Of a stretch of 64,000 nt of DNA, positions 443-59,980 are shown piece after piece (position 1 is the stretch's first letter; every line of letters begins with the position of its first letter). Origin of the DNA: Synechococcus sp. MIT S9220 (GTDB lineage Bacteria > Cyanobacteriota > Cyanobacteriia > PCC-6307 > Cyanobiaceae); NCBI RefSeq assembly GCF_014304815.1, contig NZ_CP047958.1, positions 2,232,001 through 2,296,000 of the forward strand, given 5' to 3'. The translations under genes and the position numbers were made by a program. Under the pieces are notes generated by a model. That model was not told the origin of the DNA. It saw only the letters and a list, made by a program, of their open reading frames with translations, and did not search any database.

Positions 443-1645
443 TCAAGGGGATTGACTGAGCTGCCACAAACGATCTGTGGTTGTCGACAGACGCTCTGAA
501 AGCACCATCGACAAATTACGCAGCATCAGCGCTGCCGCCTCGGGATGGGATCGGATGGCACGACGAAGAAAGTTCTGAGTCAGCACCAGGACGCGCAGGG
601 AAGTGACTGCCACGACATCGGCACTGCGGCGCTGACGGCCGAGAAAGCCCATCTCTCCGAAAACCGAACCGGTCCGAAGCAGGGCAAGTGAAAGGCGCTC
701 ACCGTTGTCCTTCTGACGCCAAACCTCAGCGACCCCCTCCAGAACAACGAATAAATCCTGCTGGGGATCTCCCTGCCTCACCAAACGATCACCTGCCTGG
801 CATGACAAAACAGTGCCTGTTTTCAGCAGTGCTCTCACCTGATCGTCCTGCATCCCCTGGAAAAGAGGAATCCCATTGTTCTGATCGCAGAGAGCGGCAC
901 CCACCTCATCCCAAAATTGATCCGGCTCCACCAACCGGTGATTCAACCCCTGATACGTCGCGCACAGCCTGGAGAAGAAGGCTCCATCACCCCAGCGATC
1001 CTCAGCGACTCGAGCATGGGGATGACGCATCAGAGGAGAGCGACTGATCTTCAGATGTGAGCCATCGTTGAGAGCCAGCAACATCGGCACCTGATAGCCA
1101 ATCCCTGGCCAGTCAACCCCGGAGCAGAAACGCCGGTATCCCAGTTGCTCATAGAACTCCACCAAGCCTGGATTGGCGTGGCAGAGATCCAGACGGATTC
1201 CAGCCTGGATGGCATCTCCGTAACAGCGGTTGAACAGCAGTCCAAGCGCCGTGCCACCTCGGCACGCCGCCTGAACCATCAATCTCGAGGTGTAGGACAT
1301 CGACTTCCAAGAGACATGCTCTAACAAGGGCATCAAAGCCCTTGCCATCACTCGGAGCTGACTGTCGGGGTCATCGAGATCACCAAGCAGATTCAGGCGC
1401 AGCGTGCCGACCAATTTGCCCTCAGGATCACGAAGGCCATACAACCGAGCCGCTATGTCGAGGGAGTCACGAATCCAGCGACGACGATGATCCGCATCTG
1501 GAGGAGACTTTCCCATCTCCTCCACATAAATTTCATATCGCAAGGAAAAGATCTCTTCCCGCTCCTCCTGAGACTGCGCCAGCACGACATGAACCTTGCC
1601 AAGGTCCGTCATTGCACTGAGGTCTTCACTGACCGGTTCGTGCAA
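443..1645 (-). CDS. GNAT-like acyltransferase fused to a C-terminal cyclic-nucleotide-binding domain
   Basis: The protein has 400 residues. The first half (about 20-200) resembles the GNAT/FeeM/autoinducer-synthase fold: an arginine-rich FSLRYEIYVEEMGK segment, a strand with GTLRLNLLGD, and a later SRLMVQAACRGG region. The second half (about 265-390) is a cNMP-binding domain with a phosphate-binding cassette FGEMGFLGRQRRSADV in which Glu331 and Arg340, the ribose and phosphate contacts of cAMP receptors, are both present. By inference an acyl transfer reaction is under cAMP or cGMP control. Mycobacterial cAMP-dependent acetyltransferases have the same two domains in the opposite order. The start may instead be the ATG at 1612, which avoids a 20-base overlap with the stop of the preceding (p)ppGpp gene. 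The acceptor substrate is unknown. Confidence 0.75.
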   Translation of the reverse strand: MHEPVSEDLSAMTDLGKVHVVLAQSQEEREEIFSLRYEIYVEEMGKSPPDADHRRRWIRDSLDIAARLYGLRDPEGKLVGTLRLNLLGDLDDPDSQLRVMARALMPLLEHVSWKSMSYTSRLMVQAACRGGTALGLLFNRCYGDAIQAGIRLDLCHANPGLVEFYEQLGYRRFCSGVDWPGIGYQVPMLLALNDGSHLKISRSPLMRHPHARVAEDRWGDGAFFSRLCATYQGLNHRLVEPDQFWDEVGAALCDQNNGIPLFQGMQDDQVRALLKTGTVLSCQAGDRLVRQGDPQQDLFVVLEGVAEVWRQKDNGERLSLALLRTGSVFGEMGFLGRQRRSADVVAVTSLRVLVLTQNFLRRAIRSHPEAAALMLRNLSMVLSERLSTTTDRLWQLSQSP

Positions 1646-3956: not shown

Positions 3957-3989
3957 CCGACCCGACAGGTGAATCCATGGTATGTAGCC

Positions 3990-5618: not shown

Positions 5619-6038
5619 CAGTCGCCTGGCCACAGTGAAACCAACCGGATGATTACACCAGGCGTTCAATCAGGAGTTTTAGACATCAACCAAAACCCCT
5701 AATCAGTATTTGTAGAAAATAAAATCAAAGCCCAATTACTCGAACATGGTGCGTCGGCGCAAAGACCGATAAACCACACCACAGCCAACCAAAACTCATC
5801 CGAAAAACAAATCTGAAACAAGCAACAGCAACATAAACAACCGTATTTTGACTTGGACTCAAGAGCCTCAAATCCTTCATTTGAGGGATGGTAGGGAACA
5901 AGTATTGAAGGCTGCATGAGAGAGCGACGAATCGGGGAGAGGTCCAACAAAGTCAGATTCAGACACACTCTGAACGGCATGAGTTCTATCTGAATCACAT
6001 CCCGTCGCTGCACTGGATCTGTACCTCTCATTCATGCC
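5619..6038. other. 420-base intergenic region with no convincing gene
   Basis: AT-richer than its flanks. The open frames on both strands look like chance. A weak long-range pair (CGCCTGG about 5629 with CCAGGCG about 5658) could form a loose hairpin after the ABC gene. The only clear structure is the inverted repeat at 5866-5886. The region must hold the promoter of the CBM2-like gene that starts at 6039. Confidence 0.6.
5866..5886. repeat. inverted repeat upstream of the CBM2-like gene
   Basis: CCTCAAAT and ATTTGAGG are perfectly complementary 8-base arms around a 5-base CCTTC loop, about 150 bases before the next start codon. It has no following T-run, so it is more likely an operator or a leader hairpin than a terminator. 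Role unknown. Confidence 0.45.
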
Positions 6039-7646
6039 ATGACGCCATCTGAGTCACTGCAGGTCTCAATCGGTGGGGACATTTGGTGGGGCGGCTTCAC
6101 TGCCGACCTGGCCATTACCAATTCAAGTGATCAAGCGCTTGAAGACTGGACCATCAGCTTCACCAGTCGCCATCAACTCGACCCCAATGCCTGGGGAGTC
6201 GCTCTCGAAAGTGAGTCCTTGGATAACGGACTGATGCGCTACACGCTCACAGGCGCGGATTGGGGCAGTCGCATCCCAGCAGGAGCAACCATCAATGTTG
6301 GCTTCAACGGAACACAGGGCAGTGAGCTTGGGCGCGACGGCAGCCTGACCGAACAGATGCTGGTTTCAGAGGCTGGTTTGAACACCAGCACCAGCACCGA
6401 CTCCAATCCCGACGACGCCATGACCATGGCCGAGATATCGATGAACGCTGCCGGAATGGACGACCATGCCGGCCACGATCACTCCATAAATCAGCACGCT
6501 GCCTCAGCAGGGGGTTACACGGATATCAACAGCTGGGGAAATTTCCATGACTCCAATCACAATTCCGAGCACAACGAATTGGTCGGAGGGCGCACTGCTA
6601 TCACCACCGAAGCCTTGAAGGCTTACAACGGCCTGCGTGCGTTCGCAGGACTTGACGCTGTGGGTGTTGAAGCGGTTGGCGAATGGGCGTTTGCCAACGG
6701 CCTGACCAACAATTCACAAGCCTGGGGGAATGACACCAAAGGTGTCGGCCTTTGGTATGCCATGCAGGGAGCCAAGGTGGGCTGGATTGCAGATCAGGCC
6801 TATGACCCTCAGATCCTCGCCGACATCCAACGAACGGCACGACTGGGTTCCCAAGACGACGTCATGGGAATGGTGCATGAGTTTGGCCATGAGGGATTTG
6901 CCGACTACATCGAGCAATCCGAGCTCAGGAACAATTTCATTAACACCTTGAAAATGGAGCCCCATTACGGAGGCTGGATGCATGGTCGAACCCATGGATT
7001 TTTAGACATTGAAGGTGTAGCGATTGCCCACGACATCAATCACCTCACGGTTCTGGGATGGGATCAGGACCAACCGTTCATGAATGACACATTTGACTGG
7101 CCGCAATGGCCGGCACTAGATGTTTCCGATTCCACGGTGATCAACTACTACCAGGGAATTGTTTCGCTGGGTAATCCACTCGCTGAGAATCTGGAGGCGC
7201 TGTCAAGTCCTGGAGTCATCAATCCGGAGCCACAACCCGTTACTTTGCCAGGCCCCATTCTCCCCGATCCACAAACAGACGAAACTGATTTTTTAACAGG
7301 CGAGCCTGTCGATGTTGAAGTGAGTGGCGATCTCTGGTGGGGCGGATTCACTGCCTCTCTCACGGTGACGAATCAGAGCGAACAGCAACTTGACAACTGG
7401 TCGGTGAGCTTCAACAGCAACCACAGGTTTTATGGCGAATCCTGGGGCGTCGACGTAGCAACTGAACAACTTGATGGAGAGCTCTATCGCTACGAGCTCT
7501 CCGGCGCGGATTGGGGCTCATCGATCGGTGCTGGCCAATCCATGATGGTGGGATTCAATGCGCTCGCAGGCACGGATCTGGGCCGTAGCGGAGCGCTGAG
7601 CAAAGCCATGCTGTTGGCAGCAGGGAGCGAAATCACACCGCTTTAA
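6039..7646 (+). CDS. protein with CBM2-like domains at both ends and a central HEXXH motif domain
   Basis: A 535-residue protein. The N-terminal (about 5-110) and C-terminal (about 425-530) domains are clear copies of each other: both have GG/SGDxWWGGFTA, a DNW/DWxxSF strand, an RY(T/E)LxGADWGS segment and a VGFN strand, the pattern of family 2 carbohydrate-binding modules. Between them lie a His-rich linker (DDHAGHDHS) and a domain of about 250 residues with HEFGH at 280-284 followed by many further histidines (GWMHGRTHGF, AIAHDINHL). HEXXH is the zinc site of many metallopeptidases, but the rest of the domain is not one I recognise. There is no Sec signal peptide: the CBM begins almost at residue 1. 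It is followed by a strong hairpin terminator. Enzyme activity is only a hypothesis. Confidence 0.65.
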   Translation: MTPSESLQVSIGGDIWWGGFTADLAITNSSDQALEDWTISFTSRHQLDPNAWGVALESESLDNGLMRYTLTGADWGSRIPAGATINVGFNGTQGSELGRDGSLTEQMLVSEAGLNTSTSTDSNPDDAMTMAEISMNAAGMDDHAGHDHSINQHAASAGGYTDINSWGNFHDSNHNSEHNELVGGRTAITTEALKAYNGLRAFAGLDAVGVEAVGEWAFANGLTNNSQAWGNDTKGVGLWYAMQGAKVGWIADQAYDPQILADIQRTARLGSQDDVMGMVHEFGHEGFADYIEQSELRNNFINTLKMEPHYGGWMHGRTHGFLDIEGVAIAHDINHLTVLGWDQDQPFMNDTFDWPQWPALDVSDSTVINYYQGIVSLGNPLAENLEALSSPGVINPEPQPVTLPGPILPDPQTDETDFLTGEPVDVEVSGDLWWGGFTASLTVTNQSEQQLDNWSVSFNSNHRFYGESWGVDVATEQLDGELYRYELSGADWGSSIGAGQSMMVGFNALAGTDLGRSGALSKAMLLAAGSEITPL

Positions 7647-30782: not shown

Positions 30783-31184
30783 TCAAGCGGCCGTCGATCG
30801 GGACGCAAGCTCAATCAGCTCCACCTTGTATCCATCGGGATCCTCCAGAAAAGCGATCACAGTGCTGCCGTGCTTCATCGGGCCCGGTGCGCGCACGAGC
30901 CTTCCACCTCGCTCAGCGATCCCCGAACAGGTGGCATGGATGTCCTGCACCCCGAGTGCGATGTGGCCATACCCATCACCCAGGTCGTAATGCTCGGTGT
31001 CCCAGTTATGCGTGAGCTCCAGCACGGTGTGATCCTTTTCGTCGCCGTAGCCCAGAAAGGCCAGTGTGAAACGACCGGAGGCATAGTCCTTGCGGCGAAG
31101 CAACTGCATGCCCAGGACATCGGTATAAAAAGAAAGCGATCGCTCCAGATCGCCAACCCGAAGCATGGTGTGCAGCATGCGCAT
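30783..31184 (-). CDS. gloA: lactoylglutathione lyase (glyoxalase I)
   Basis: Isomerises the hemithioacetal of methylglyoxal and glutathione to S-lactoylglutathione. From the ATG at 31184 (133 residues) it lines up closely with the E. coli enzyme, including metal ligands His5 (MRMLHTMLRVGDL), Glu in TVLELTHNW, His in YGHIALGV and Glu in YKVELIEL. An in-frame ATG 4 codons earlier exists. The clpB start follows 16 bases on. The window also holds a methylglyoxal synthase fusion at 57 kb, so maker and first detoxifying enzyme are both present, though 26 kb apart. Confidence 0.95.
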   Translation of the reverse strand: MRMLHTMLRVGDLERSLSFYTDVLGMQLLRRKDYASGRFTLAFLGYGDEKDHTVLELTHNWDTEHYDLGDGYGHIALGVQDIHATCSGIAERGGRLVRAPGPMKHGSTVIAFLEDPDGYKVELIELASRSTAA

Positions 31185-38593: not shown

Positions 38594-40465
38594 ATGAGAA
38601 CCACCGGCAAGGCCAGAACATGTATCGCGATCACGCTGTTCGGCCTGCTGTGTGGTGGCCTCAGCGGCTGGCCACCGGCTCTATGGCGGAGCTGGTCCAA
38701 AGACATCAGTGATCAGATCACACTCTGGGCGGGGCCCAGCAAACCGCCGGCAGAGGTGGTGGTCATCGCTGTTGATGATGCATCTCTGCAACAGGCACGC
38801 TGGGTACTGGAGGATGCGAACCCAGCGCCCTGGAGTGAAGGTCTCGAACGCTGGCCTTGGCCAAGAGCGGTCTACGGGAAGCTGATTGAACGCGTCATCG
38901 CAGCTGGCAGTCGTGGTGTGGCGATCAATGTGCTGTTTGCCGGCCAAAGCATGTATGGCCCGGAGGATGATGCCCGCCTCGCACAAACACTGAAGCGCCA
39001 CAGTTCATCAGTGGCTCTGGCCGCCGAAATGATGGAACCGGTTGATCGCCAGGGGGCGGGCGGTCTCTCCCTCGAGCCCCCCGCATCAACCCTGCTGGAT
39101 GCTCTGGGCGGCTTGCCCTATCTGGGCCTCACCAACATGCTCAACGCCGAAGACGGCAGTATCGGTCCACATCCAGAAGCCTATGGGCAACGGGTGCTGC
39201 GGCCCTACAACTTCGAATTGCAGCAATCCCTCCCCTCCGCCCTGCTGAAGATCGCCGGGCTCGAGCCACCGCACGATCAGGCTGATCGTTCGCTGCGGTT
39301 GTATGGACCTGAGGGAACCATCACCCGACTGTCAGCCTGGGAAGTGCTGGACCCGCAGCGTTGGCGCAATCACCCCTTGCGAGACAGGCTCCGAGACAGT
39401 CTGGTGCTGATCGGTCCAACTCTGGAAGACAACCAGAGCAGCCAGTCCACACCGTTTGGGACCCTGTCGGGGGTTGAACTCCTGGCCACAGCAACCGCCA
39501 ATGACCTCGACGGCAGCGGTCTGCGTCAATGGCCTCAGCATCCCTGGCAGAAAGCTCTGTTCAGCGCTGCCTGCAGCTGGCTGATTGCCTATCTGGCCAC
39601 GCGGCGCCTCACTCTGCGCTGGCGGCTGATCAGTTGCTCACTCGGCCTGAGCAGCCTCCTTCTAATCAGCATCATCACGCTTGTGCAACGCCAGACCGTG
39701 CTGCCTTTGCTGGCACCAAGCGCCGGGATCGTTGGCCTGGCTTCCACACTTGCCGTCAGCAGTTTCTGGCGGGAGGAGCAGGAACGTCGACGGCTCCGCC
39801 AGACCTTTGAGCGGTATGTGTCCCCAAGCGTGGTCCAGGAAATCCTCAAAGACCGCGACAGCGCTGAAGGCATTCTCAGAGGCAAGACTCTCAACGTGAC
39901 AGTCCTGTTCAGTGACCTTGAGGGATTCACAGCCCTGACCCGGGAACGATCACAACAAGGGCGCAGCGAAGAGCTCATCCATCAGCTGAATCGCTACCTG
40001 GGCCGAATGGTGGAGGTGGTCAACGAGCATGGGGGCACGGTCGACAAGTTCATCGGCGATTGCGTCATGGCCGTTTTTGGATCACCGGTCAGTCGAGGGA
40101 CTGAGCTGGAAGCCAGGCAGGCGGTTCGTTGTGCAGCAGCCATGCGTCAGGCCCTGGAAGAACTGAATCAGAATTGGACAGAGAGAGGCCTTGATCCGCT
40201 CAGCTGTGGCATCGGCCTGGCCAGCGGGGAAGCGGTGGTTGGCCAGATCGGCAGTCCACAACGGATGGATTTCACCGTGATCGGCGACACGGTCAATCTG
40301 TCCAGCCGCCTGGAATCACTGACGAGAAAGCTCGGCACGCCCATCCTGATGGATGAACAAACCGCACTCCTTGCTGGGGCAGAGATCGCCACGGACAATC
40401 TCGGTGAGCAGGCGATCAAAGGAATGAATCGCTGCCAGGTCTATCGACCCAGGCTCATCCCTTGA
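38594..40465 (+). CDS. CHASE2-domain adenylyl cyclase, class III
   Basis: A 623-residue membrane sensor enzyme. It has an N-terminal helix (CIAITLFGLLCGGLSGW), an extracytoplasmic CHASE2 domain (about 50-300; EVVVIAVDDASLQQ, WPWPRAVYGKLIERV), three membrane helices (about 315-395) and a C-terminal class III cyclase domain. Catalytic elements are complete: both metal aspartates (LFSDLEGFTAL and KFIGDCVMAVFG), the adenine-selecting Lys in VDKFIGD with Asp in MDFTVIGD, and the Asn/Arg pair in TVNLSSRLE. The product is therefore most likely cAMP. It follows a FecR gene, an arrangement repeated at 51-55 kb. The 3' end overlaps gatB tail to tail by 11 bases. Confidence 0.92.
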   Translation: MRTTGKARTCIAITLFGLLCGGLSGWPPALWRSWSKDISDQITLWAGPSKPPAEVVVIAVDDASLQQARWVLEDANPAPWSEGLERWPWPRAVYGKLIERVIAAGSRGVAINVLFAGQSMYGPEDDARLAQTLKRHSSSVALAAEMMEPVDRQGAGGLSLEPPASTLLDALGGLPYLGLTNMLNAEDGSIGPHPEAYGQRVLRPYNFELQQSLPSALLKIAGLEPPHDQADRSLRLYGPEGTITRLSAWEVLDPQRWRNHPLRDRLRDSLVLIGPTLEDNQSSQSTPFGTLSGVELLATATANDLDGSGLRQWPQHPWQKALFSAACSWLIAYLATRRLTLRWRLISCSLGLSSLLLISIITLVQRQTVLPLLAPSAGIVGLASTLAVSSFWREEQERRRLRQTFERYVSPSVVQEILKDRDSAEGILRGKTLNVTVLFSDLEGFTALTRERSQQGRSEELIHQLNRYLGRMVEVVNEHGGTVDKFIGDCVMAVFGSPVSRGTELEARQAVRCAAAMRQALEELNQNWTERGLDPLSCGIGLASGEAVVGQIGSPQRMDFTVIGDTVNLSSRLESLTRKLGTPILMDEQTALLAGAEIATDNLGEQAIKGMNRCQVYRPRLIP

Positions 40466-48567: not shown

Positions 48568-50046
48568 ATGACTCTGACTCTGAGCCTTCTGGTCATCGTG
48601 GCACTTCTGACGGTCCATCGGGTTTGCAAACGCCAGAAGCTCAGCCCGCCGCCTTTGCGAATGCCTTTGATTGCAGCGATCGGCATCCCCTTGTTGAGCA
48701 AGCTGGCTGAAATCGTCAGCTACGGCGGTCTGCCGGTTTTGCAGAATTCACTGGCAGCAGCCATCACGCTGCTCTGGGCTCTGAGCCTGATTCGCATCCT
48801 GAACTGGGGCATCCTGCAGATTCCCGCTGAGCTGGGCTGGTGGAAACCCACCGCCAAGATCCTGCGAGACCTGCTCACCCTTGCAGTGATCACTGTCGTA
48901 ACGATGGTGGTGATTCACCGAGATTTCCGCGTCAATCTTGTTGGCTTGGCAGCCACCTCGGCCGTCGTCACCGCCGTCATCGGTCTTGCCGCTCAAGAGA
49001 CCCTGAAAAATTTGTTTGCAGGGATCTCGCTACAGGTTGACTCGCCCTTTGAAGAAGGTGACTGGATTGATCTGGATTCAGCAACCGGCGTCGTGACATC
49101 GCTGCGTTTAATGACTACCCGAGTGCGCGGACTGGATGGCTCAATCACCGTGGTACCGAACAGCCGCATTGCCGTGGAAGGGCTGCGCCGGTTCAAACCT
49201 GAAGAACCTGTGGGACAGATGATCGATGTGGGATTGGACTACAGCCTGCCTCCAAGACAGGCGATCCAGCTGCTGCAACAAACTCTTCAACACAACCGCA
49301 AGGTGCTCCATCAACCCACTCCCAAAGTTTGGGTATCGTCCTTTGAAGACAGCTCAATCACCTACCGCTTGCTGACCTGGCAAAGATCACCACTGGAATT
49401 GCGCCAACTGAAAAGCACAGTGCTTGAACAGATTTGGTATGCCCTGCATCGCATTGACCAGTCAATTCCCTATCCAATCCGAGACGTTCGCACCAAACCA
49501 AGCCAAGCCAAGTTGCCATCAAGCGACATTACGTTGGAGCAAAAACAAAGCCTGCTGGCCTCAACAGAAATCTTCGGTCATCTCAATGAGCAGCAGCTTG
49601 CCATGCTGGCGGACCAGGCAAGCTGCGAGACCTTTGCACCCGGCGAATCGGTCGTTAGGCAAGGAGAGCGCGGTGACAGTCTTTATCTCGTGGTTCGAGG
49701 CACACTGGAGGTGTTTCAAGCAAGCGCCAACAGCTCCACCAGCCATCCAAGTCGATACGTCTCAGATCTTGAGGTCAGTGACACCTTTGGTGAAATGGCA
49801 CTCTGCACCGGTAAAGCACGTTCAGCGAGTGTGATCTGCAAGAGCGAATGCATCTTGATCGAGATCGAACGCAAACACCTTCTGCCACTGCTCGAAGAAC
49901 AGCCTGAAATTCTCGAAACCATGGGATCGATCATGGCCGCACGCCGACAGCAGCTCAAAGCGAACCAGCAGCAACGTGCTGAGTCCCGGCGCCTCGCGTT
50001 GATCGCACGCATGCAAAAGCTTTTTAACCTCCGGAGAGGGGACTAA
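48568..50046 (+). CDS. MscS-type mechanosensitive channel with C-terminal cNMP-binding domain
   Basis: A 492-residue protein. The N-terminus has three or four membrane helices (LSLLVIVALLTVHRV, AAITLLWALSLIRIL, LLTLAVITVVTMVVI and VGLAATSAVVTAVIGLAAQ), the last being the pore-lining helix, followed by the MscS beta domain with SPFEEGDWIDL and VVPNSRIAVEG. A cNMP-binding domain occupies about 335-460; its phosphate cassette FGEMALCTGKARSASV keeps Glu409 and Arg418, so cAMP or cGMP binding is likely. Cyclic-nucleotide-gated MscS relatives are known from other bacteria, including cyanobacteria. It lies between speA and the convergent crp gene. Confidence 0.9.
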   Translation: MTLTLSLLVIVALLTVHRVCKRQKLSPPPLRMPLIAAIGIPLLSKLAEIVSYGGLPVLQNSLAAAITLLWALSLIRILNWGILQIPAELGWWKPTAKILRDLLTLAVITVVTMVVIHRDFRVNLVGLAATSAVVTAVIGLAAQETLKNLFAGISLQVDSPFEEGDWIDLDSATGVVTSLRLMTTRVRGLDGSITVVPNSRIAVEGLRRFKPEEPVGQMIDVGLDYSLPPRQAIQLLQQTLQHNRKVLHQPTPKVWVSSFEDSSITYRLLTWQRSPLELRQLKSTVLEQIWYALHRIDQSIPYPIRDVRTKPSQAKLPSSDITLEQKQSLLASTEIFGHLNEQQLAMLADQASCETFAPGESVVRQGERGDSLYLVVRGTLEVFQASANSSTSHPSRYVSDLEVSDTFGEMALCTGKARSASVICKSECILIEIERKHLLPLLEEQPEILETMGSIMAARRQQLKANQQQRAESRRLALIARMQKLFNLRRGD

Positions 50047-50066: not shown

Positions 50067-50753
50067 TCAGGAAATCAGACCACGCTTGAGAAGCGGCTTG
50101 AGATCAGCCAGACGCAAGCGGCCGTTCTGCTCAGTGATCGTTCCGCGAGAACGCAGCTTGCTCAGGGTGCGTGAAGCCGTCTCCCTGGCCAGACCGGCCA
50201 GAAGCGCAATCTCCCTCTGTGCCAATGGAGGGAGTTCCGCCTGCAGGTCCTGACCTACTGAGCTTTTGCGCGCCAGGTATGCCAACCCATCGAGCAGTCG
50301 AGTGGTGGCATCGGCGCTCTGCAGAGCAAAACGCTGGTTGAGATCACGCAGTCGGCCAGCCTCCAAACGTGCCAGCGCCAACGCGAATGGTGCGAGCTGA
50401 CCCAGCAGCGAGGCAAAGGGAGCCGATCGCATCTTGATCAGATGCAGAGGCGTCAGAGCAACCACATCGGCGGAGCGTGAAGCACCATCCAGTACGGCCA
50501 TCTCGCCAAAAACGTCTCCTTGCCCCAGCAGCGACATGATCACCTCATCCCCGTCAGCTGTATAGGTGCGCACCTTGGCCAAGCCATCACGGATCACAAA
50601 CAGTGATTCGCCCCAATCCTGTTCCATCAAGATCACCTGATCAGGCTGATGAGTGGTCTCGCGATAACGATCAAGCAATAGCGTCAGCTGTTCGACCGGC
50701 AGGCAAGCGAACAGGGGCATGGATCCAAGGTCCTCAGGCGTGAGCGCAGACAT
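50067..50753 (-). CDS. Crp/Fnr-family transcription regulator, probable cAMP receptor
   Basis: From the ATG at 50753 the product has 228 residues: a cNMP-binding domain (about 10-130), a long dimerisation helix and a C-terminal winged helix (about 150-228) with the Crp helix-turn-helix LPPLAQREIALLAGLARETA and SRTLSKLRSRGTI. The phosphate cassette FGEMAVLDGASRSADV keeps Glu84 and Arg93, and no Fnr-type cysteine cluster is present, so cAMP is the probable ligand. NtcA is excluded because its cassette differs. The frame open to 50786 is less likely. It is a good candidate to bind the operator at 43313. Divergent from the cyclase at 51058, with a gene remnant between. Confidence 0.88.
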   Translation of the reverse strand: MSALTPEDLGSMPLFACLPVEQLTLLLDRYRETTHQPDQVILMEQDWGESLFVIRDGLAKVRTYTADGDEVIMSLLGQGDVFGEMAVLDGASRSADVVALTPLHLIKMRSAPFASLLGQLAPFALALARLEAGRLRDLNQRFALQSADATTRLLDGLAYLARKSSVGQDLQAELPPLAQREIALLAGLARETASRTLSKLRSRGTITEQNGRLRLADLKPLLKRGLIS

Positions 50754-50861
50754 CGTTGATAAGGAATGCGACCGGAAGAAAGGCAAGCCACAAGATCACC
50801 ATGACGATGTTGACATCAAGCCGCAACCGATTCTGCCAACGCAGAACGTTCGGGTCTAAGG

Positions 50862-51061
50862 AGCTTCGAAGAGTTGGTGATGCAGCAGGACACACCGACT
50901 GAACGCGTGCTAGCCGTGCAGGGGGATGACCTTCAGCAAGCCCAACCTATGACAGCGATCTGGTGATGAAACTGCTGGCACTGATTTTGGAGGGTCTAAA
51001 GGCACTCTTCAGTACTGCTGAGCAGCCAAGGCCTCTTGCGCAGAAACTGAACCAGTCATGA
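50862..51061 (+). pseudogene. decayed cNMP-binding protein gene
   Basis: Translation gives EELVMQQDTPTERVLAVQ then GDDLQQAQP and, after a frame change near 50947, YDSDLVMKLLALILEGLKAL ending at TGA 51059. The intact gene at 56329 has VLIQQDTPAVRVLIVQ, KADDLLKAS and YDSDLVMELLAL in the same order, followed later by ILEALGAL. So most of the cNMP domain is lost by internal deletions and one frameshift. The remnant runs into the cyclase start codon. Confidence 0.8.
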
Positions 51062-52944
51062 GCAGACCATCTCTTCGGCAATGGCTGCATCGCAACAGCA
51101 CCGTCCTGATCCTCAGTGGTGTGGTCGCCGTGAGCGGTGGACTAAGCAGCGCCTGGCTGACCAGCGTGGAGTTGCGTTTTGCCGGCATGGTGCAGGAAAC
51201 CCGCGGACTCCGGCCAGTGCCAGATCGATTGATGATCGTGGCCATTGACGACTTCAGCCTGCAGCAGGCAGCGAATGTGGATCTCAGCGACGATCCGCTG
51301 CTGCAAAGCCTGAGCCAATGGCCCTGGCCTCGACAAATCCATGCCACGGTGCTGGATCGCCTGATCGAGGCAGGAGCGACTGTGGTGGGTTTCGACCTGC
51401 TCTTTGAATCGCCCAGCAGCCATGGAGAGACAGACGATGCGGCATTTGCCGAGGCCCTACAACGTCATCGTGAGCAGGTGGTTCTTGGCGTTCAGGTTCT
51501 CAGCACCCGGGGACCCGTTGCAGGGATGTCCCTTCTGGATGTCACGCCAGGCCTGCGGCCTGCTGACCAGCCGCTGCATCGAGGACTGCTCAATGGCGAA
51601 CCGGACAGTGATGGAGTGATCCGACGCCGTCCGGGGCAGGTCACTCAGTCGATGCGTGAACAGCTGAATGCTTCAATTCCAGATGGCCTGGCCATCGCGC
51701 TGCTCAGGAAACAGAAGGAGTCCGCCGATCTCAGCATCCACAGCCGCGACCTGCTGGATCCTTACGGTCCGCCAAGGACGATTCCAACCCTCTCCATCTG
51801 GGAACTGCTTGAACCGCAGGCCTATGCATCAATCAAGAAGTCCGGGCGGCTGCGCAATGCCCTGATTCTTGTGGGACCGACTGCAGCCGTGTTGCAAGAT
51901 CGCCATCCCGCCGTGTTCTCAGGAGCGGAGGGCATGCCGGGAGTTGAACTGCATGGGACGGAACTGGCCAACCGTCTTGAATCACGTTCACTGCGCTGGA
52001 TCCCTGCACCTCCTGGATGGAACCTGGTGATGGCAATGCTGGTGCTAGTCACCGGGGTGTGCGCGGCCCGGTTTGAACGACCACTACCTCGCCTGGGCTT
52101 GCTGCTGGTCGCCGCAGGGCTTTTGGTCGCAGGCAGTGCAGGTCTGATCGTCTGGGGCGGCCTTCTGCTGCCGGTTCTAGGGGTAGCGGGAAGCCTGGGA
52201 GTCACGGGGATCGTGACGAGTGCCGATGCAACCGTGCGACTGCAGTGGCAGCGCCGACGTCTGCGCCGCACGCTCGGTCGATATCTATCTCCTGCCGTGG
52301 CCGCAGTGATCTCTGAACAGCCTGAAGAAGCCGATCAACTTCTAGGCGGGCAGTTAACAGACGTGGTGATCTTAATGAGCGACATCCGTGGATTTACAGC
52401 CTTCACACAGGAGATGACAAAGCAAGGGAACGTCAAACAACTGGTCGATCGACTCAACACCTACTTCAGCGAAGTGGTGGATGCAGTGCATTCAGAAGAA
52501 GGCACGGTCGACAAATTCATCGGCGATGCCGTGCTCGCGGTATTTGGGGCACCACTTCAGAAAACAAGCAGCACCAATGTGCTGGCTGCGGTCAAAACGG
52601 CAATCGCTTTACAGCAACGACTCGCCATTCTCAATCGTGCCTGGATCGCCGAAGGGCAATCACCATGGGATCAGGTGGTGGTACTCAGTTACGGCTGGGT
52701 TGTGAGCGGCAACATCGGCTGCGCCAGCCGAATGGACTACACCGTGATCGGCGATGCCGTGAATACAGCCAGCCGCTTGGAGGCGATTGCCAAGCAATGC
52801 GGCCAAGCAATTGTGATGAGTGCTGCGGTGGCGGAACATCTAGACGGCGACTGGCCTCTACAGGACCTGGGGACATTTCCTATCCGTGGGCAAGACGATC
52901 AACGGGTGTTCGCACTCAAAACTGACACTAAAGAGCACACCTAG
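51058..52944 (+). CDS. second CHASE2-domain adenylyl cyclase, class III
   Basis: A 628-residue paralogue of the cyclase at 38594. It has an N-terminal helix (STVLILSGVVAVSGGLSSAW), a CHASE2 domain (LMIVAIDDFSLQQA, WPWPRQIHATVLDRLIEAG, GFDLLFESPS), three membrane helices (about 320-390) and a cyclase domain with the metal aspartates in LMSDIRGFTAFT and KFIGDAVLAVFG, the adenine-selecting Lys/Asp in VDKFIGD and MDYTVIGD, and AVNTASRLEA. All catalytic residues appear intact, so cAMP production is expected. The gene is followed 47 bases later by a FecR-domain gene; in the first pair the order is reversed. Its ATG overlaps the last codons of a decayed cNMP gene. Confidence 0.92.
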   Translation: MSRPSLRQWLHRNSTVLILSGVVAVSGGLSSAWLTSVELRFAGMVQETRGLRPVPDRLMIVAIDDFSLQQAANVDLSDDPLLQSLSQWPWPRQIHATVLDRLIEAGATVVGFDLLFESPSSHGETDDAAFAEALQRHREQVVLGVQVLSTRGPVAGMSLLDVTPGLRPADQPLHRGLLNGEPDSDGVIRRRPGQVTQSMREQLNASIPDGLAIALLRKQKESADLSIHSRDLLDPYGPPRTIPTLSIWELLEPQAYASIKKSGRLRNALILVGPTAAVLQDRHPAVFSGAEGMPGVELHGTELANRLESRSLRWIPAPPGWNLVMAMLVLVTGVCAARFERPLPRLGLLLVAAGLLVAGSAGLIVWGGLLLPVLGVAGSLGVTGIVTSADATVRLQWQRRRLRRTLGRYLSPAVAAVISEQPEEADQLLGGQLTDVVILMSDIRGFTAFTQEMTKQGNVKQLVDRLNTYFSEVVDAVHSEEGTVDKFIGDAVLAVFGAPLQKTSSTNVLAAVKTAIALQQRLAILNRAWIAEGQSPWDQVVVLSYGWVVSGNIGCASRMDYTVIGDAVNTASRLEAIAKQCGQAIVMSAAVAEHLDGDWPLQDLGTFPIRGQDDQRVFALKTDTKEHT

Positions 52945-52991: not shown

Positions 52992-54791
52992 GTGTTTAAA
53001 AAGCTGTTGACTATCGCTTGCGCAGCAGTTCTGATGCCTGCGGCAGCTGAGGCAGCTCCGTTCAACAGCGCCACGATCCGACGCATCATCGATGGCAGAG
53101 AAGTATTCATCGACCGGCGAGAAGCAACCGTTGATGACACCGCAGACCGTGGCCAGGAAGTCAGCACCGGCAGCAGCAGGGCTGAAGTGCTATTTGACCG
53201 ACGAGCGCTTGGCTTTCTGGGAAACAACAGTCTGATCCGCCTTGGAGAAGACTGCTTTCGCCTGGATCGCGGCCAGGTGCTGGTCAATGGACCCCAAAAC
53301 ACTTGTCTAGGAACAAAAGTGCTGGGAATCCGCGGCACCACCTATGTGCTGAGCGTGAAGGACAACGGCAGCTATGAGCTTGCAGTGCTGAGCGGCGAAG
53401 CCACCGTTGGTGATGCAGCCGAAAATCCAGTAAAGGACAGCTCTCCAGACATCCTCTCGATGTACCCCACGCTGAATCCGGTGATCGGCTTCGGATCTAG
53501 TGCTTGGGGTAGCAATGCATCAGGCGAGAGCCTTGGAGAAGCAGCAGGGCTCATCCTTGGTGACGCTTCCTTTTTTATGCCGCTCAGTCAGAGCTTGGGA
53601 AGCAATCTCCTGTACAGCTACACCACCGCCAGCAGCAATTTTGATGGCGCCTGGGGTGCAAGCACTGAATTGGGATACAAGTGGTTCAACCCTGATAACA
53701 GAAGCATCAGTTCAGTGTTGATGGGATACGACGGCTGGGATAGCGCTGGCTGTTTTCAGTCTCAAGTTGCACTAGGAGGTCTTTGGCAAAAGGGGCGCTG
53801 GCAGTTCGGGGTGAACGGCGGGATTCCTCTGGATCAATGCGTCAACAACCTCGGATATGCGATTGGTCAGATCGGCATCCCCATCGCCGACGTTGGAAAC
53901 CAATCCATCACCCTGTCACTCTCCCCTTATGTGCTCCATGGGATTGGCGAATCATTTGGAGGAGGACGGATTGGCGTGAATGTCCCAATCGGCAATCAGG
54001 TGATGCTTTCGACCTACGGCCAATACGACAATCTTCTTGACACCGTGATCGGCGGACAGATCAGTTACAGATTTGCCACCAAGGGAGGATTTGTAAACGA
54101 TCCAAACCTGCAGCGATCAACAGCCTCATCTCCGATGCCATGGCAAGCCAAGGAATTCAACACAAGCAGTCCTGTGCAAATTGCAATGGGGCATCGACGC
54201 GACAGCTCTCCATCTCAAGCTGATCCTGCAGAGAAGGTGCAAATTCCAGAAATAACCAACCTGATCGGCAATACAAACGCAGTAGTGCAACTCAAAGCTG
54301 GTGAAGAGGCAACCTTCAGCCCCGACGGTATGTTGCTGAGTCAGAAAATGATGAGCAAAGATCGCTTCTCACAATTGATCATCGAGACTATGAGTGGCCA
54401 GAACCTTCTGCCTGAAAGCCACGCAATCAATCTGGTTTACCAGCAGCTTTATGGAGTACCTAATAGCACACTGCTGTCGATTCTGGGATCGGACTGGCTA
54501 ATCGCAGCCAGAACACCCTATCCACGTCTTCGCGGAGCCAACAATCTTGTTGTTCCGAACAATAAGTTGCCCAAGGAAGAGAAAGAGGAAGAGACAGAGA
54601 CAGCGAAAACATATGTTTGCAGCACTTCTGGCAACTCCTTCCAGTATTTCCAGAGTGGAAATGTATCGGGAGTCAGCAATATCACTGACGCCACTAAGTT
54701 CCAAACTACAGAGTCAAACACCACTGGCTCCTGCAGTGGGAAACTTGCAGGATCCAATGGAATGGAAACAACATCGCCGGAGTTCATCTAA
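52992..54791 (+). CDS. exported FecR-domain protein fused to a beta-barrel-like region
   Basis: A 599-residue protein starting at GTG 52992 with a signal peptide (LLTIACAAVLMPAAAEAAP). The FecR domain (about 25-140) shows STGSSRAEVLFDRRALGFLG, the Cys pair in EDCFRL and QNTCLG, VLGIRGTTYVLSVK and LAVLSGEATV, clearly related to the protein at 37839. It is followed by about 220 residues of alternating strands (LGYKWFNPDNRSI, LGGLWQKGRWQFGVNGGIP, ISYRFATKGG) that look like an outer-membrane beta-barrel of the inverse-autotransporter kind, then a low-complexity C-terminus containing an acidic/basic run near residue 525. By inference it links the outer membrane or cell surface to the neighbouring cyclase. 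Confidence 0.8.
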   Translation: MFKKLLTIACAAVLMPAAAEAAPFNSATIRRIIDGREVFIDRREATVDDTADRGQEVSTGSSRAEVLFDRRALGFLGNNSLIRLGEDCFRLDRGQVLVNGPQNTCLGTKVLGIRGTTYVLSVKDNGSYELAVLSGEATVGDAAENPVKDSSPDILSMYPTLNPVIGFGSSAWGSNASGESLGEAAGLILGDASFFMPLSQSLGSNLLYSYTTASSNFDGAWGASTELGYKWFNPDNRSISSVLMGYDGWDSAGCFQSQVALGGLWQKGRWQFGVNGGIPLDQCVNNLGYAIGQIGIPIADVGNQSITLSLSPYVLHGIGESFGGGRIGVNVPIGNQVMLSTYGQYDNLLDTVIGGQISYRFATKGGFVNDPNLQRSTASSPMPWQAKEFNTSSPVQIAMGHRRDSSPSQADPAEKVQIPEITNLIGNTNAVVQLKAGEEATFSPDGMLLSQKMMSKDRFSQLIIETMSGQNLLPESHAINLVYQQLYGVPNSTLLSILGSDWLIAARTPYPRLRGANNLVVPNNKLPKEEKEEETETAKTYVCSTSGNSFQYFQSGNVSGVSNITDATKFQTTESNTTGSCSGKLAGSNGMETTSPEFI

Positions 54792-55566: not shown

Positions 55567-56133
55567 ATGTGGGGAGACGAACCTCAGCTGCAGGCCTTTC
55601 GAGAACGACTGAAGCTCCTGCTAGTTGCCCACCAGCAGGAGCTCAATCCTGAGAAAGTTTTCGCTGACGAAGGAGACATTCTGTTTCATCAGGGCGAATC
55701 AGTGGAGACTTTGATGTTGCTGACTCAGGGGCGTGTCGCAGTTGATATTCATTACGGCGACGAGATCCACACACTGGCAGAAGTTGAGGCTGTGGAATTG
55801 CTTGGCGAAGTTGGTTTCTTCGCCAATGGCAAGCACTACGCCGACTTTCGCGTTGTGGAAGGACAGGCAGAACTTCTAACCATTCCAGGCCAGGCACTGC
55901 TTCAGGCCATGTTGTTTGACACTGATCTCGTCGTGGAGATGCTGTCACTGGTCAGTGAGCGCTGCCGTCGAGGCAATCAGGTCATCGCCATGCTGCTGAG
56001 CGGAATCGAAGCCGTGCATGACGATTCCCAAGAGAAAATTAAACAGGTCTCAACAGAGCTGGGGGGGATCCACTTCTGCATTGCCAAGGCCAGCAGACAG
56101 CTGCAGAGGCTGCAGCAGCGGCGCCGAATCTGA
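55567..56133 (+). CDS. stand-alone cNMP-binding-domain protein
   Basis: A 188-residue protein with one cNMP-binding domain (about 30-130) and a C-terminal helical tail. Domain strands are visible in KVFADEGDILFHQGESVETL and LLTQGRVAVDIHYGDE. In the phosphate cassette LLGEVGFFANGKHYADF the ribose-binding Glu81 is kept but the phosphate-binding Arg is replaced by His90, so ligand binding may be weak, altered or lost. The tail (LFDTDLVVEMLSLVSERCRR and onward) is homologous to that of the next gene. No DNA-binding domain is present. It probably acts as a regulator through protein contacts. Confidence 0.8.
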   Translation: MWGDEPQLQAFRERLKLLLVAHQQELNPEKVFADEGDILFHQGESVETLMLLTQGRVAVDIHYGDEIHTLAEVEAVELLGEVGFFANGKHYADFRVVEGQAELLTIPGQALLQAMLFDTDLVVEMLSLVSERCRRGNQVIAMLLSGIEAVHDDSQEKIKQVSTELGGIHFCIAKASRQLQRLQQRRRI

Positions 56134-56328
56134 CGACTCAACAAATCGCGTTGCTGCGCTGCGCCCAAGCAGCTCCCAGGCTCCATCCAGAGCGGCCAGC
56201 ACCAGCAGGATCAGAGACTCCTCAAAGGAGATAGCCATTGAGCAAAGTCAGAACGTGACGCTATGGAGGGTAGAGATGCCTGTTCTGGCCTGAGCAGTCA
56301 GCATGCATGCAGCGGCTCCCGGCCATGC

Positions 56329-56904
56329 ATGAAGAACGAGAACCAACAGCTCACCCAGATTCGTGATCGTCTGCGGATGTTGCTGAGCACCCATCTCTCC
56401 ACAATCAGCCATCAAACGCTCACAGCAGCTGTGGGTGAGGTGCTGATCCAACAGGACACACCAGCCGTAAGGGTGCTGATTGTGCAAACAGGAGAATTGA
56501 AAGTTGAACGCTGTGAACCAGGTGGCACGCCTCAAGTGATCGCCCGAATCGGACCGGATGAACTGGTCGGAGAAATGGCATTGATCGGTGATCAACACCA
56601 CAGCGCAAGCGTCACGGTGAGTCGCGGACCGGCCGAGATCCTTGTGGTTAAAGCGGATGATCTACTGAAGGCTTCCATCTACGACAGCGATTTGGTGATG
56701 GAACTGTTGGCTCTAAGCAGCAACCGCTGCCGCCAAACCAACCGCCATCTGACTTTGATCCTTGAAGCCCTGGGGGCTCTGGATCAAGAGCATTCCTCCG
56801 CACTGAATCGGTGCTGCAACGAACTGGAGTACAGCTCTGATCCAGCACTTTCCAACGCAGCCCGACGGTTGAGACGACTGGTGAAGGCACAGGAAACACC
56901 ATGA
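56329..56904 (+). CDS. second stand-alone cNMP-binding-domain protein
   Basis: A 191-residue paralogue of the preceding protein. The ATG at 56329 puts the domain start in register; the frame open to 56263 adds a Cys/Ser-rich lead that is not conserved. The cassette LVGEMALIGDQHHSASV keeps Glu82 but has His91 where Arg is usual, the same substitution as its neighbour. The helical tail YDSDLVMELLALSSNRCRQT and NAARRLRRLVKAQE has no helix-turn-helix. The decayed gene at 50862 was a third member of this group. The 195-base gap before it may hold its own promoter. Confidence 0.8.
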   Translation: MKNENQQLTQIRDRLRMLLSTHLSTISHQTLTAAVGEVLIQQDTPAVRVLIVQTGELKVERCEPGGTPQVIARIGPDELVGEMALIGDQHHSASVTVSRGPAEILVVKADDLLKASIYDSDLVMELLALSSNRCRQTNRHLTLILEALGALDQEHSSALNRCCNELEYSSDPALSNAARRLRRLVKAQETP

Positions 56905-57118: not shown

Positions 57119-58012
57119 ATGGATCGCAACGTCCTGATCGACACCCTGCAAAATGAAGGAAATCTGAAGCATTCGTTCAGCGCCGAAGATATTGAACTGA
57201 TTGCTCAACACATGTCGATCAAAACATTCGACAAGGACACCATCTTGATGTCCAAAGGAGAGCCTGCCGACTACATGGCATTCCTTGTGAATGGCCGCGT
57301 ACAGATTCTTGAAGACGAGAGACAGATTGCACTCCTCACGAAAGGTGATTTTCTTGGAGAAAGCCTGTTCTCAGAGCAAGCAACACGCGTGGCAGATGTT
57401 CAAGCCATGGAGAAAACAACAGTGGGCCTATTCACAATCCACGATTTCCATGATTTTTTAAAGACCAATCAAAGGCTTGCACTTCAATTCAGGGAAATTT
57501 TCAAGGCCATTGAACGCGCCCGAGCCCAGCAGCACGTAGCAGAAACATATATTGATAAACGCAAATACTTGGCACTAATAGCCCATAACAACATGAAGGA
57601 AAGTCTGATGGAATTTTGCAGCATTCACACTGAGAAACTGGAGAAATTTCCCCTCATCGCGACTGGCACAACCGGCAGCATGCTGTACAAAAAAACTGGC
57701 ATGTGCCTGAGCCGCAAGGTAGCTTCAGGTCCTCTGGGTGGAGACCAAGCAGTGGGAACTCTGATTTCCACGCAAAACATTAGCGGCGTGATTTTTTTCA
57801 GAGATCCACTCTCTTCTCACCCCCATCACGCTGATATCGAAGCCCTAGGTCGTCTCTGTGATGTCTACCAGATCCCTTTTGCAACAAACCCTCAAAGCGG
57901 CGAAGCCATTCTCGACTACCTTCTCTCCGCCAAAGCGAATCGCGAGCTCCTTCCCAATCGTGTTTTGGAAGCCTACGTTCAAGGACAAAAGAAAGTCGTC
58001 GAAGCTAGTTAA
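57119..58012 (+). CDS. cNMP-binding domain fused to methylglyoxal synthase
   Basis: A 297-residue two-domain protein. Residues 20-135 form a cNMP-binding domain with cassette FLGESLFSEQATRVADV, keeping Glu81 and Arg90. A helical linker (about 128-147) leads to a methylglyoxal synthase domain (148-275): YLALIAHNNMKESLMEFC, ATGTTGSMLY, SGPLGGDQAVGTLIS, FFRDPLSSHPHHADIEAL and VYQIPFATN follow the E. coli enzyme closely. Catalytic Asp209 (Asp71 in E. coli), Asp229 (Asp91), His236 (His98), Asp239 (Asp101) and His156 (His19) are kept; Asp20 is replaced by Asn157 and Asp99 by His237. The enzyme converts dihydroxyacetone phosphate to methylglyoxal and phosphate, so cAMP control of this bypass is inferred. 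It is AT-richer than its neighbours. Confidence 0.9.
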   Translation: MDRNVLIDTLQNEGNLKHSFSAEDIELIAQHMSIKTFDKDTILMSKGEPADYMAFLVNGRVQILEDERQIALLTKGDFLGESLFSEQATRVADVQAMEKTTVGLFTIHDFHDFLKTNQRLALQFREIFKAIERARAQQHVAETYIDKRKYLALIAHNNMKESLMEFCSIHTEKLEKFPLIATGTTGSMLYKKTGMCLSRKVASGPLGGDQAVGTLISTQNISGVIFFRDPLSSHPHHADIEALGRLCDVYQIPFATNPQSGEAILDYLLSAKANRELLPNRVLEAYVQGQKKVVEAS

Positions 58013-58666
58013 AATCAACCAATTCAATCAACCCGATAATGTGAACACCGAAGAGAAACCAAACCAAAAAACTTAATTGAGACCGGACAAATCTGAACTA
58101 AATTTAACCCTAAATCTTCAACAACCACATCGTCGAGGATTGGGGCTCAAAAATCACCACTCCTTAAAATGGGTGGGTTCAGGATTGCTCCAATCACGGT
58201 ATATTTCAACCGATCGCTCAACCCCTTCAAGAATTCAACACTGGAAGAACCAAGGCGCAGTTGCAAATCCCTTCCGGTCCTGAACTTGACGACCGATTTC
58301 AAGCATCACCTGCATGCGTCCTGGCTTTGTGGAGCGCGGCAACGCATCGGTGCTCACCCACTCTCGAATGTGCATCAACCTCGTTCTTAGCGGGCAATCA
58401 GACCAAGGCAGAGCCATTGGGCACCTCCGCGATGCGTGGCTGAGCGGCCTGTGAAGGCAAGCCGAAAAAGGCTGTTCCCATCGCCAAACACGTATCGACC
58501 TGCACACGAACCGATTGCATCAACCAATTCAACACGCCTTGATCCAACCCTGACAAAGAAGGACTGACATCACCACTAATACATCAAATGGCGAAAAACG
58601 ATCCGTCAGGCATTGCTGAGTCGAGAAGCAATTGCCAGATTAGAAGCAACCAGCATTTGAAAACTC
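58013..58666. other. 654-base region between the methylglyoxal synthase and phosphofructokinase genes
   Basis: No well-supported long gene. The first 130 bases are AT-rich. The minus strand between 58235 and 58560 has protein-like open frames, one with a good ribosome-binding site (58235-58417) and another reading LDQGVLNWLMQSVRVQVDTC that ends just inside it; they may be a small gene pair or decayed genes. No CRP-like site and no terminator were found. Confidence 0.5.
58235..58417 (-). CDS. possible small hypothetical protein
   Basis: A 60-residue frame from the ATG at 58417, which is preceded five bases away by GGAGGT, a strong ribosome-binding site. The product contains LRTRLMHIREWVSTDALPR and GRMQVMLEIGRQVQDR, with a balanced composition unlike a shadow frame, and no recognised domain. 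An upstream frame on the same strand ends overlapping its start. It could be a real small gene of marine Synechococcus or part of a decayed gene. Confidence 0.35.
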   Translation of the reverse strand: MALPWSDCPLRTRLMHIREWVSTDALPRSTKPGRMQVMLEIGRQVQDRKGFATAPWFFQC

Positions 58667-59980
58667 GTGGCATACGAAAATGTGCTTAATAACCCGACTA
58701 CATTCGATTTTCGAATCGAAGAGCTTGGTGAAAGTCAATACTCCAATCCCAGTCGCAATGCTGTATTCGTTGAGAATATGGAGCGCATTATCTTTTCTAG
58801 CCAACTCAAAAATCTAAAGCATCAACTGGAAACATGCCCGGAATTGCCCTCATTTGAAAAGGCAGGTGCACGTCGAAAAATTTTTCACGATCCAGAATCA
58901 ACCCAAGCCGCCATCATCACATGCGGGGGGCTCTGCCCAGGGCTGAATAATGTCATCAAAGGGTTAGTGAATGTTCTCGAGCAGGATTATGGAGTCAAAA
59001 ACATTCTTGGCATCCGATATGGATACAAAGGACTGACGCAGGCATCAACTCATCCACCAATCCAACTCAATTCTCTAATCGTCGATCAGATCCATAAACA
59101 GGGCGGAACCATACTTGGATCATCTAGAGGTAGTCAGGATCCAGAGGAGATAGTGGACATGCTCCAAGCAAGAGGAATCAACCTTCTCTTTTGCATTGGC
59201 GGCGATGGAACCTTAAAGGGTGCTCAGGCGATCGCGGAAGCCGCAATTCGTCGCAAGGCAAACATCAGCATTGTCGGCGTGCCTAAGACCATTGACAATG
59301 ATCTCGGCTTTGTCGAGAAAACCTTCGGCTTTGAAACCTCAGTACAAACAGCCTCTGAAATCATCACATCAGCCCAAAACGAAGCAGAAGGGGCTGAAAA
59401 CGGCATCGGCATCGTTAAGTTAATGGGTCGAGACTCTGGGTTCATCACTGCCACGGCATCTCTTGCAAACTCTGTGGTTGATTTCTGCCTAATCCCAGAA
59501 ACCTCTTTTCAATTCGGCGGGCCGGATGGGATCTGCACTGCTATTCAACGAAGGATTGAACAAAAAAACCATGCCGTTGTGGTCGTTGCAGAAGGAGCAG
59601 GACAGGAACTTTTTGCTAACAACGAGAAAAAAATGGATGCTTCCGGAAACATCCTCAAAGAGGACATCGGAGAGTTACTCAAAGAAGAGCTGACAGCTCA
59701 CTTCAAGCAACACAACATGACGATCAACATCAAGTATCTTGACCCGAGCTACCACATCCGAAGCGTTGCAGCCAATGCTTCGGATGCTGTTTTTTGCCAG
59801 CTACTTGCCGAATATGCCGTCCATGCAGGAATGAGCGGGAAAACGAATCTTGTCATTGGTTACTGGAACAATTTCTTCACCCACGTCCCTATTCATCTGG
59901 CCACAAAAGAAAGGCGAATGGTTGAACTTGATAGCGCTCTATGGCGCGGCGTGATGAGTGCAACCCATCAAGAGAAATAA
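58667..59980 (+). CDS. 6-phosphofructokinase, plant-like ATP/PPi-PFK group
   Basis: Phosphorylates fructose 6-phosphate to the 1,6-bisphosphate. The 437-residue protein has an N-terminal extension of about 75 residues, then ITCGGLCPGLNNVIKGL, GIRYGYKGL, GGTILGSSRGSQ, the phosphoryl-donor loop CIGGDGTLKGA (178-182, with Gly after Asp as in ATP-dependent enzymes; PPi enzymes have GGDD) and the catalytic PKTIDNDL (206-213, with Lys, seen in PPi and plant enzymes), VKLMGRDSGFI and a YLDPSYHIRS segment. The combination GGDG plus PKTIDND is that of plant-type ATP-PFKs. The start is GTG 58667 with no clear ribosome-binding site. It lies downstream of the cNMP-methylglyoxal synthase gene, in the same direction, and is AT-richer than its flanks. 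Confidence 0.9.
   Translation: MAYENVLNNPTTFDFRIEELGESQYSNPSRNAVFVENMERIIFSSQLKNLKHQLETCPELPSFEKAGARRKIFHDPESTQAAIITCGGLCPGLNNVIKGLVNVLEQDYGVKNILGIRYGYKGLTQASTHPPIQLNSLIVDQIHKQGGTILGSSRGSQDPEEIVDMLQARGINLLFCIGGDGTLKGAQAIAEAAIRRKANISIVGVPKTIDNDLGFVEKTFGFETSVQTASEIITSAQNEAEGAENGIGIVKLMGRDSGFITATASLANSVVDFCLIPETSFQFGGPDGICTAIQRRIEQKNHAVVVVAEGAGQELFANNEKKMDASGNILKEDIGELLKEELTAHFKQHNMTINIKYLDPSYHIRSVAANASDAVFCQLLAEYAVHAGMSGKTNLVIGYWNNFFTHVPIHLATKERRMVELDSALWRGVMSATHQEK

Follow-up and report, generated by a model that had tools for sequence, protein, structure and literature searches.

The window analysed here, a stretch of 64,000 nucleotides from Synechococcus sp. MIT S9220, contains an open reading frame that raises one question: is it a methylglyoxal synthase (MGS) switched by a cyclic nucleotide? 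The initial annotation had proposed that a complete cyclic-nucleotide-binding domain (CNBD) is joined in this frame to a nearly full MGS. It had suggested a profile search of the MGS half, a search for the same architecture across genomes and a structure prediction against MGS as checks, and all three came out in favour of the assignment (Table 1).

The frame was open without interruption over 297 codons. Residues 35–117 matched Pfam cNMP_binding (PF00027; E 1.2e-16; 60.9 bits, cut-off 27.5), and residues 165–256 matched Pfam MGS (PF02142; E 1.7e-11; 44.6 bits, cut-off 24.1), both above the cut-off. For methylglyoxal synthase, the NCBIfam equivalog PRK05234 matched residues 146–278 (146.1 bits, cut-off 84), and TIGR00160, also an equivalog, was narrowly missed (142.7 bits, cut-off 146.9). 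The top sequence match in the PDB was the Thermus MGS 2xw6 (E 4.5e-36, residues 149–270), and the CNBD matches there all lay inside residues 3–133.

An AlphaFold2 model, for which an alignment of 18 family members was the input, consisted of two domains (pLDDT 80.1, pTM 0.70). Residues 149–273 of the model matched the MGS 1wo8 (Z 20.4, rmsd 1.7, 122 aligned residues), and E. coli MGS 1B93 was also among the structures matched. Residues 2–139 matched the cAMP-binding region of HCN2, 3bpz (Z 17.6, rmsd 2.4, 133 aligned residues). Foldseek agreed with this two-domain assignment. The pLDDT fell below 50 at 140–145, which is the linker, and at 274–280, and was about 57–59 in the tail region. The frame encodes a CNBD joined to an MGS. 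The same architecture was present as an open frame in other single-contig genomes (G003, G006, G010, G012, G021, G551, G633 and G664), which ruled out a chance fusion or an assembly artefact.

Table 1. Features of the window that bear on the fusion gene (coordinates in the window).
Feature	Position	Strand	Basis
Second class III cyclase catalytic domain of this genome (G000:C1:2271890-2272444)	39890..40444	+	Profile match
Glyoxalase I, TIGR00068 above cut-off	30807..31181	-	Profile match
MscS channel with C-terminal CNBD	48568..50046	+	Pfam
CRP/FNR-type regulator with CNBD	50067..50786	-	Pfam
CHASE2 + class III adenylate/guanylate cyclase	51058..52944	+	Pfam
Stand-alone CNBD protein	55567..56133	+	Pfam
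Stand-alone CNBD protein	56263..56904	+	Pfam
CNBD-MGS fusion gene, 297 aa	57119..58012	+	Profiles, PDB matches, AlphaFold2 model
CNBD, residues 1-140, cassette Glu81 + Arg90	57119..57538	+	Pfam, fold, residues
MGS domain, residues 148-273	57560..57937	+	NCBIfam, PDB, fold, residues
C-terminal tail, residues 276-297, clade-specific Y-x3-Q motif	57944..58009	+	Alignment
Deletion scar: 3' end of convergent adenylate cyclase + remnant of partner gene	58013..58666		Alignment to relatives
6-Phosphofructokinase, NCBIfam PRK06830, 608.5 bits, cut-off 400	58667..59980	+	Pfam, NCBIfam

The genome of this strain (G000, 2.42 Mb, one contig) gave three Pfam MGS matches above the cut-off, namely the fusion gene and two long frames of 1136 and 538 aa. 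We take the latter two to be CarB and PurH, so that the fusion would be the sole MGS proper of the genome.

The residues of E. coli MGS were transferred to the fusion by us from alignments. Catalysis and substrate contact are assigned to H19, D71, D91, H98, D101 and G66 in PMC1877815, and substrate and phosphate contact to K23, S65 and T45–G49 in PMC7843640. All of these were present in the window, among them H156, K160, T182/T184/T185, S203, D209, D229, H236 and D239 of the fusion. The initial annotation was right that the catalytic Asp and His remain (His156, Asp209, Asp229, His236 and Asp239).

After re-fetched copies were dropped, 32 distinct fused loci were available for comparison (L001–L008, L035–L054, L076, L077, L078 and L080, L001 being the window). 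H19 and D91 were found in all 32, and D71, H98 and D101 in 31 each; the five occurred together in 31. The tabulated threonines of the phosphate loop were intact in 30 loci, Thr184 being altered in L053 and L054. L053 kept the fusion architecture but lacked D71, H98 and D101, and its fusion is probably dead.

Two replacements had been pointed out in the initial annotation, and both were confirmed. Asn157 occupies the position of E. coli Asp20, which adjoins the catalytic His19 and was examined as an MGS feature, and His237 occupies position 99. Asn was found at the first position in 31 of the 32 fused loci. His was found at the second in 29, with Gln in L042 and L054 and Asp in L053. Elsewhere, position 20 was Asp in 27 of 28 MGS (11 of 12 kinase-linked, 13 of 13 single-domain and 3 of 3 from a second CNBD-MGS lineage). 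The kinase-linked MGS without it, L021, was degenerate. L026, a diverged kinase-linked MGS-like match, aligned too poorly and was left out of the residue table. Asp20 does not appear among the catalytic residues in the passages of PMC1877815 and PMC7843640 that list them, and we therefore treated its replacement as a clade difference that does not exclude the protein from MGS. By profile and active site, the protein is an MGS in which position 20 has changed at the level of the clade.

Comparison of the window with L002–L005 gave dN/dS values of 0.005–0.021 for the MGS and 0.060–0.137 for the CNBD; in two of these four comparisons the synonymous sites were close to saturated. L006, in which these sites were saturated, was left out of the range, and the comparison with L076 fell outside it (0.036 for the MGS, 0.237 for the CNBD). 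The CNBD was thus diverging faster than the MGS. Both halves of the fusion are under purifying selection, and the constraint on the MGS is strong.

The initial annotation had taken the two replacements as a sign that activity may be restrained. Decay of the MGS as their meaning was ruled out by their near-fixation in the fused clade and by the very low dN/dS. Asn157 and His237 are markers of the fused clade, and this signature is strongly constrained; they may still affect activity. Loss of Asp20, which is conserved elsewhere in MGS, could lower the activity of the clade.

The tail behind the MGS domain was compared as well. Alignment A1 has 18 rows, of which at least 90% carry Q290 of the Y-x3-Q motif of this tail. 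In Thermus and E. coli MGS, Asp20 would belong to the salt-bridge relay through which phosphate inhibits the enzyme, presumably by pairing with an Arg of the C-terminal tail. When the tails of the fused clade were inspected by eye, in an alignment that is uncertain there, the Arg was not fixed where it would be expected.

The 32 loci came from picocyanobacteria, from Trichodesmium MAGs and from MAGs of several other phyla. The scan of genome_contigs yielded 21 fusion loci, with the titles Synechococcus, Trichodesmium, Verrucomicrobiota, Gemmatimonadetes, Latescibacterota, Myxococcota/Deltaproteobacteria, an unplaced proteobacterium, Crocinitomicaceae and Flavobacteriales. Among the genomes sampled, the fusion was present in 7 of 31 at genus level, in 11 of 201 at family level (two of them carrying the second CNBD-MGS lineage) and, at a stricter cut-off, in 10 of 386 at phylum level. 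In the Verrucomicrobiota samples, which did not draw all other known carriers of that phylum, it was found in the seed genome only, among 288 genomes (phylum) and 146 (order). An MGS-only match occurred in 12 other genomes of the 288. Frame breaks were seen in L038, L043 and L047, which are in draft assemblies, and the frame of L080 (genome G601) was shortened and lacked the N-terminal part of the CNBD.

Bacteroidota as a host by way of L039 was ruled out. The contig of this locus (PACT01000043.1, titled Crocinitomicaceae) has gene families and neighbours in common with the picocyanobacterial L060; it is probably misbinned, and we therefore counted it as picocyanobacterial. The Flavobacteriales locus, L054, was more distant, lay on a long branch and had lost the CNBD residue pair described below. 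Its ORF of 379 aa (5719–6858) has a long extra N-terminal stretch. The remaining hosts outside the cyanobacteria are known from MAG contigs, and their exact identity is therefore provisional. Spread by viruses or plasmids was also considered and set aside: the full fusion was not found in viral_contigs (one relative, with the MGS part only), in plasmids (66 records) or in phages (22 records), and none of the plasmid or phage records covered 80% of the query.

A tree of the MGS domain was built with 54 rows, in which all fused loci but L038, L043, L047 and L053 were represented (28 of 32). The 28 fused rows formed one clade (support 99/95), and ten kinase-linked rows formed a separate one (97/90). 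The second, diverged CNBD-MGS lineage (L016, L087 and L088) formed a third clade (98/87) with long branches. A long-branch warning applies to L016, L063, L087, L054 and L086. The grouping of the fused MGS domains in one clade would fit an architecture that arose once and spread sporadically. The members of the second lineage, L087 (G066), L088 (G614) and L016 (G032), kept Asp20 but were changed in other MGS motifs, for example the phosphate-binding loop.

The CNBD pocket was examined next to the enzyme. In agreement with the initial annotation, the phosphate-binding cassette encoded in the window has both Glu81 and Arg90. The pair was complete in 22 of the 32 fused loci, that is, in 13 of 14 outside the picocyanobacteria and in 9 of 18 inside. 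One or both residues were lost in the other ten (L005, L008, L035, L036, L038, L043, L054, L077, L078 and L080), nine of which are picocyanobacterial. This suggested that ligand binding is not conserved throughout the fused loci, and it argues against a universal control by cAMP. The canonical cassette motif and families without the Arg are described, together with a classification of CNBD families, in PMC2246266; the word methylglyoxal was not found in its main text.

The fusion gene sits in a cAMP-signalling island (Table 1), which also holds a Coq4-like protein (Pfam). The cyclase and CRP genes of this island, and the cyclase beside the fusion in relatives, supported the link with cAMP signalling that had been proposed from the sequence. 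The CHASE2 cyclase is the likely source of the cyclic nucleotide. Beside it, a 599-aa protein (52992–54791, plus strand) without a Pfam or NCBIfam match is encoded, and the same pair of neighbours was seen in L056, L058 and L060. Islands of adenylate cyclases near CNBD proteins have been described for marine Synechococcus (PMC7522525). Class III cyclases were detected in 13 of 14 fusion-bearing genomes, G012 being the exception, as compared with 4 of 8 fusion-free genomes, which were chosen among members of the genus with good assemblies.

In five relatives (L055, L056, L057, L059 and L081), a gene for a CHASE2-type cyclase adjoins the fusion in convergent orientation, and this gene and a partner gene stand between the fusion and 6-phosphofructokinase. 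In the window, the corresponding gap is 654 bp long. Its left end aligned with the 3' end of the relatives' cyclase gene, and the partner gene and the stretch before phosphofructokinase aligned from 58207 onward (79.7% identity over 462 bp to L055). The join lies near 58207–58219, the 5' part of the partner gene remains, and about 1.9 kb present in the relatives is missing. A deletion of about 1.9 kb has removed most of the cyclase gene and part of the partner gene. Elsewhere, the genome retains two class III cyclase genes.

Of 22 selected genomes, 6 gave a phosphofructokinase match; each of them belongs to the 14 that carry the fusion, and the two genes stand within 3 kb of each other. The family sample of 201 genomes gave 3 further matches, every time beside the fusion. 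In these samples, phosphofructokinase occurs only beside the fusion. It was missing from 8 of the 14 fusion-bearing genomes, and is therefore not a required partner. In G003, only a fragment of it stands beside the fusion. Outside the picocyanobacteria, L044 has a phosphofructokinase of 68% identity adjoining the fusion, the only one among 14 such loci, several of which are on short contigs. Apart from it, no recurring partner was found among the neighbours of these loci, in a view limited by the short contigs; 20 proteins from picocyanobacterial and other loci were scanned. An MscS-type channel was seen near the fusion in L049. L051 has, divergent from the fusion gene, a frame with two CNBDs and a class-V aminotransferase (2185–5004, minus strand), which is another CNBD-enzyme fusion. 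L060 (G006) has five tandem ORFs of 226 aa and one family, spaced by 870 bp (1424–5584, plus strand), about 2.7 kb from the fusion gene.

Glyoxalase I disposes of methylglyoxal. It was matched in all 22 genomes, fusion-free relatives included, and above the cut-off in 21. This suggested that glyoxalase I is general and not linked to the fusion.

We interpret the fusion as a working MGS whose N-terminal CNBD gates it in response to a cyclic nucleotide, with cAMP as the most likely ligand, and give this reading a probability of roughly 0.6. Catalysis, ligand, coupling of the domains and the sign of the coupling would fit together as follows. Class III cyclases of the same island would make the ligand. 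Its binding to the phosphate-binding cassette would move the hinge helix (residues 118–139) and the short linker, and this movement would free the attached MGS from inhibition. The enzyme would convert dihydroxyacetone phosphate to methylglyoxal and phosphate, and so draw triose phosphate off glycolysis. In some strains the neighbouring phosphofructokinase may feed triose phosphate, and glyoxalase I would clear the product. Methylglyoxal is toxic. We preferred activation over inhibition, since an enzyme with a toxic product would be expected to stay inactive unless switched on.

A wider version of this proposal, which we hold only tentatively, is that allosteric control in this MGS lineage passed from phosphate to cAMP. 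The Asp20 contact would have become Asn, the tail would have been replaced by a new conserved one, and the CNBD would have taken over. With phosphofructokinase and a cyclase alongside, the cluster might then be, in ocean cyanobacteria, a cAMP-gated valve from glycolysis to methylglyoxal.

The evidence from the pocket can also be read in another way: the MGS is active, but its CNBD has lost cyclic-nucleotide binding or has another small molecule or a partner as its ligand, and serves as a structural part or a differently tuned sensor. This would account for the loss of the Glu81/Arg90 pair in 10 of 32 loci while the catalytic MGS residues stay in 31, for the faster evolution of the CNBD and for the presence of the fusion in G012, which has no detectable cyclase. 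Other ligands are known to occupy some cassettes of non-canonical type (PMC2246266). On the other hand, the pair was kept in the window and in 21 other loci, including 13 of the 14 outside the picocyanobacteria, and 13 of the 14 fusion-bearing genomes tested have cyclases. On balance we consider a non-binding or retuned CNBD rather improbable, though a serious contender.

The sign of CNBD coupling differs from protein to protein, and the cyclic nucleotide might instead inhibit the enzyme, with the shunt on at low cAMP and off at high cAMP. A toxic activity that is on by default seems less likely, and we regard inhibition as an unlikely alternative to activation. The MGS half might even be a pseudo-enzyme, or a sensor of triose phosphate that signals to the CNBD or to a partner. 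All assigned base, substrate and phosphate contacts were intact in the window and the dN/dS was very low, which makes such a role very improbable, even though Asp20 is Asn in 31 of the 32 fused loci, L053 lacks D71, H98 and D101, and a separate CNBD-MGS lineage (L016, L087 and L088) has changed MGS motifs.

The gated MGS that we favour was compared with known systems. It resembles MgsA (E. coli 1B93, Thermus 2XW6 and B. subtilis 6F2C) in fold (Z 18.4–18.9), in catalytic residues and in domain identity (41–48%). MgsA, on the other hand, has no CNBD and ends in another C-terminal tail than the fused clade. The single-domain MGS tabulated have Asp at position 20 and Asp or Gln at 99; the corresponding residues of the fused clade are Asn and, in most loci, His.

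The statement in the initial annotation that known MGS are single-domain did not hold throughout. Sll0036 of Synechocystis is, like the fusion, a two-domain cyanobacterial MGS, with an NAD-kinase-like partner (PMC11897720). In the relatives examined here, the kinase-like partner is C-terminal to the MGS; MGS domains of this type form the separate kinase-linked clade (97/90), and Asp20 is present in 11 of 12 loci. In 12 of 23 cyanobacteria of the same class, an MGS match lay inside a frame of 425–691 aa, and the kinase-like partner was identified by eye in the translations.

Other enzymes fused to a CNBD were among the CNBD matches, namely the mycobacterial acetyltransferase Pat, the EAL enzyme Bd1971 and PycTIR. 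These are enzymes under regulation, and their outputs are protein acetylation, c-di-GMP breakdown and NAD loss. They differ from the fusion in the enzyme attached; the output of the fusion would be a branch of central carbon metabolism. The cAMP island Syn_GI122 of marine Synechococcus resembles the present island in that its adenylate cyclases lie close to CRP and to a mechanosensitive channel with a CNBD, but the passage of PMC7522525 on it names no MGS, and the word methylglyoxal was not found in the main text of that paper. In the open-licence PMC literature, no description of a CNBD-MGS fusion was found among the matches listed; one of these names the two as separate genes of Leptospira.

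To our knowledge, direct control of a central-carbon enzyme by a second messenger is rare in bacteria, where cAMP acts mostly through transcription factors. If the proposed gating is true, the fusion would be a natural case of an enzyme that has swapped one allosteric input for another. It would give a concrete metabolic output to part of the poorly understood cAMP islands, and marine picocyanobacteria would gain a post-translational switch on a toxic, phosphate-releasing shunt of glycolysis.
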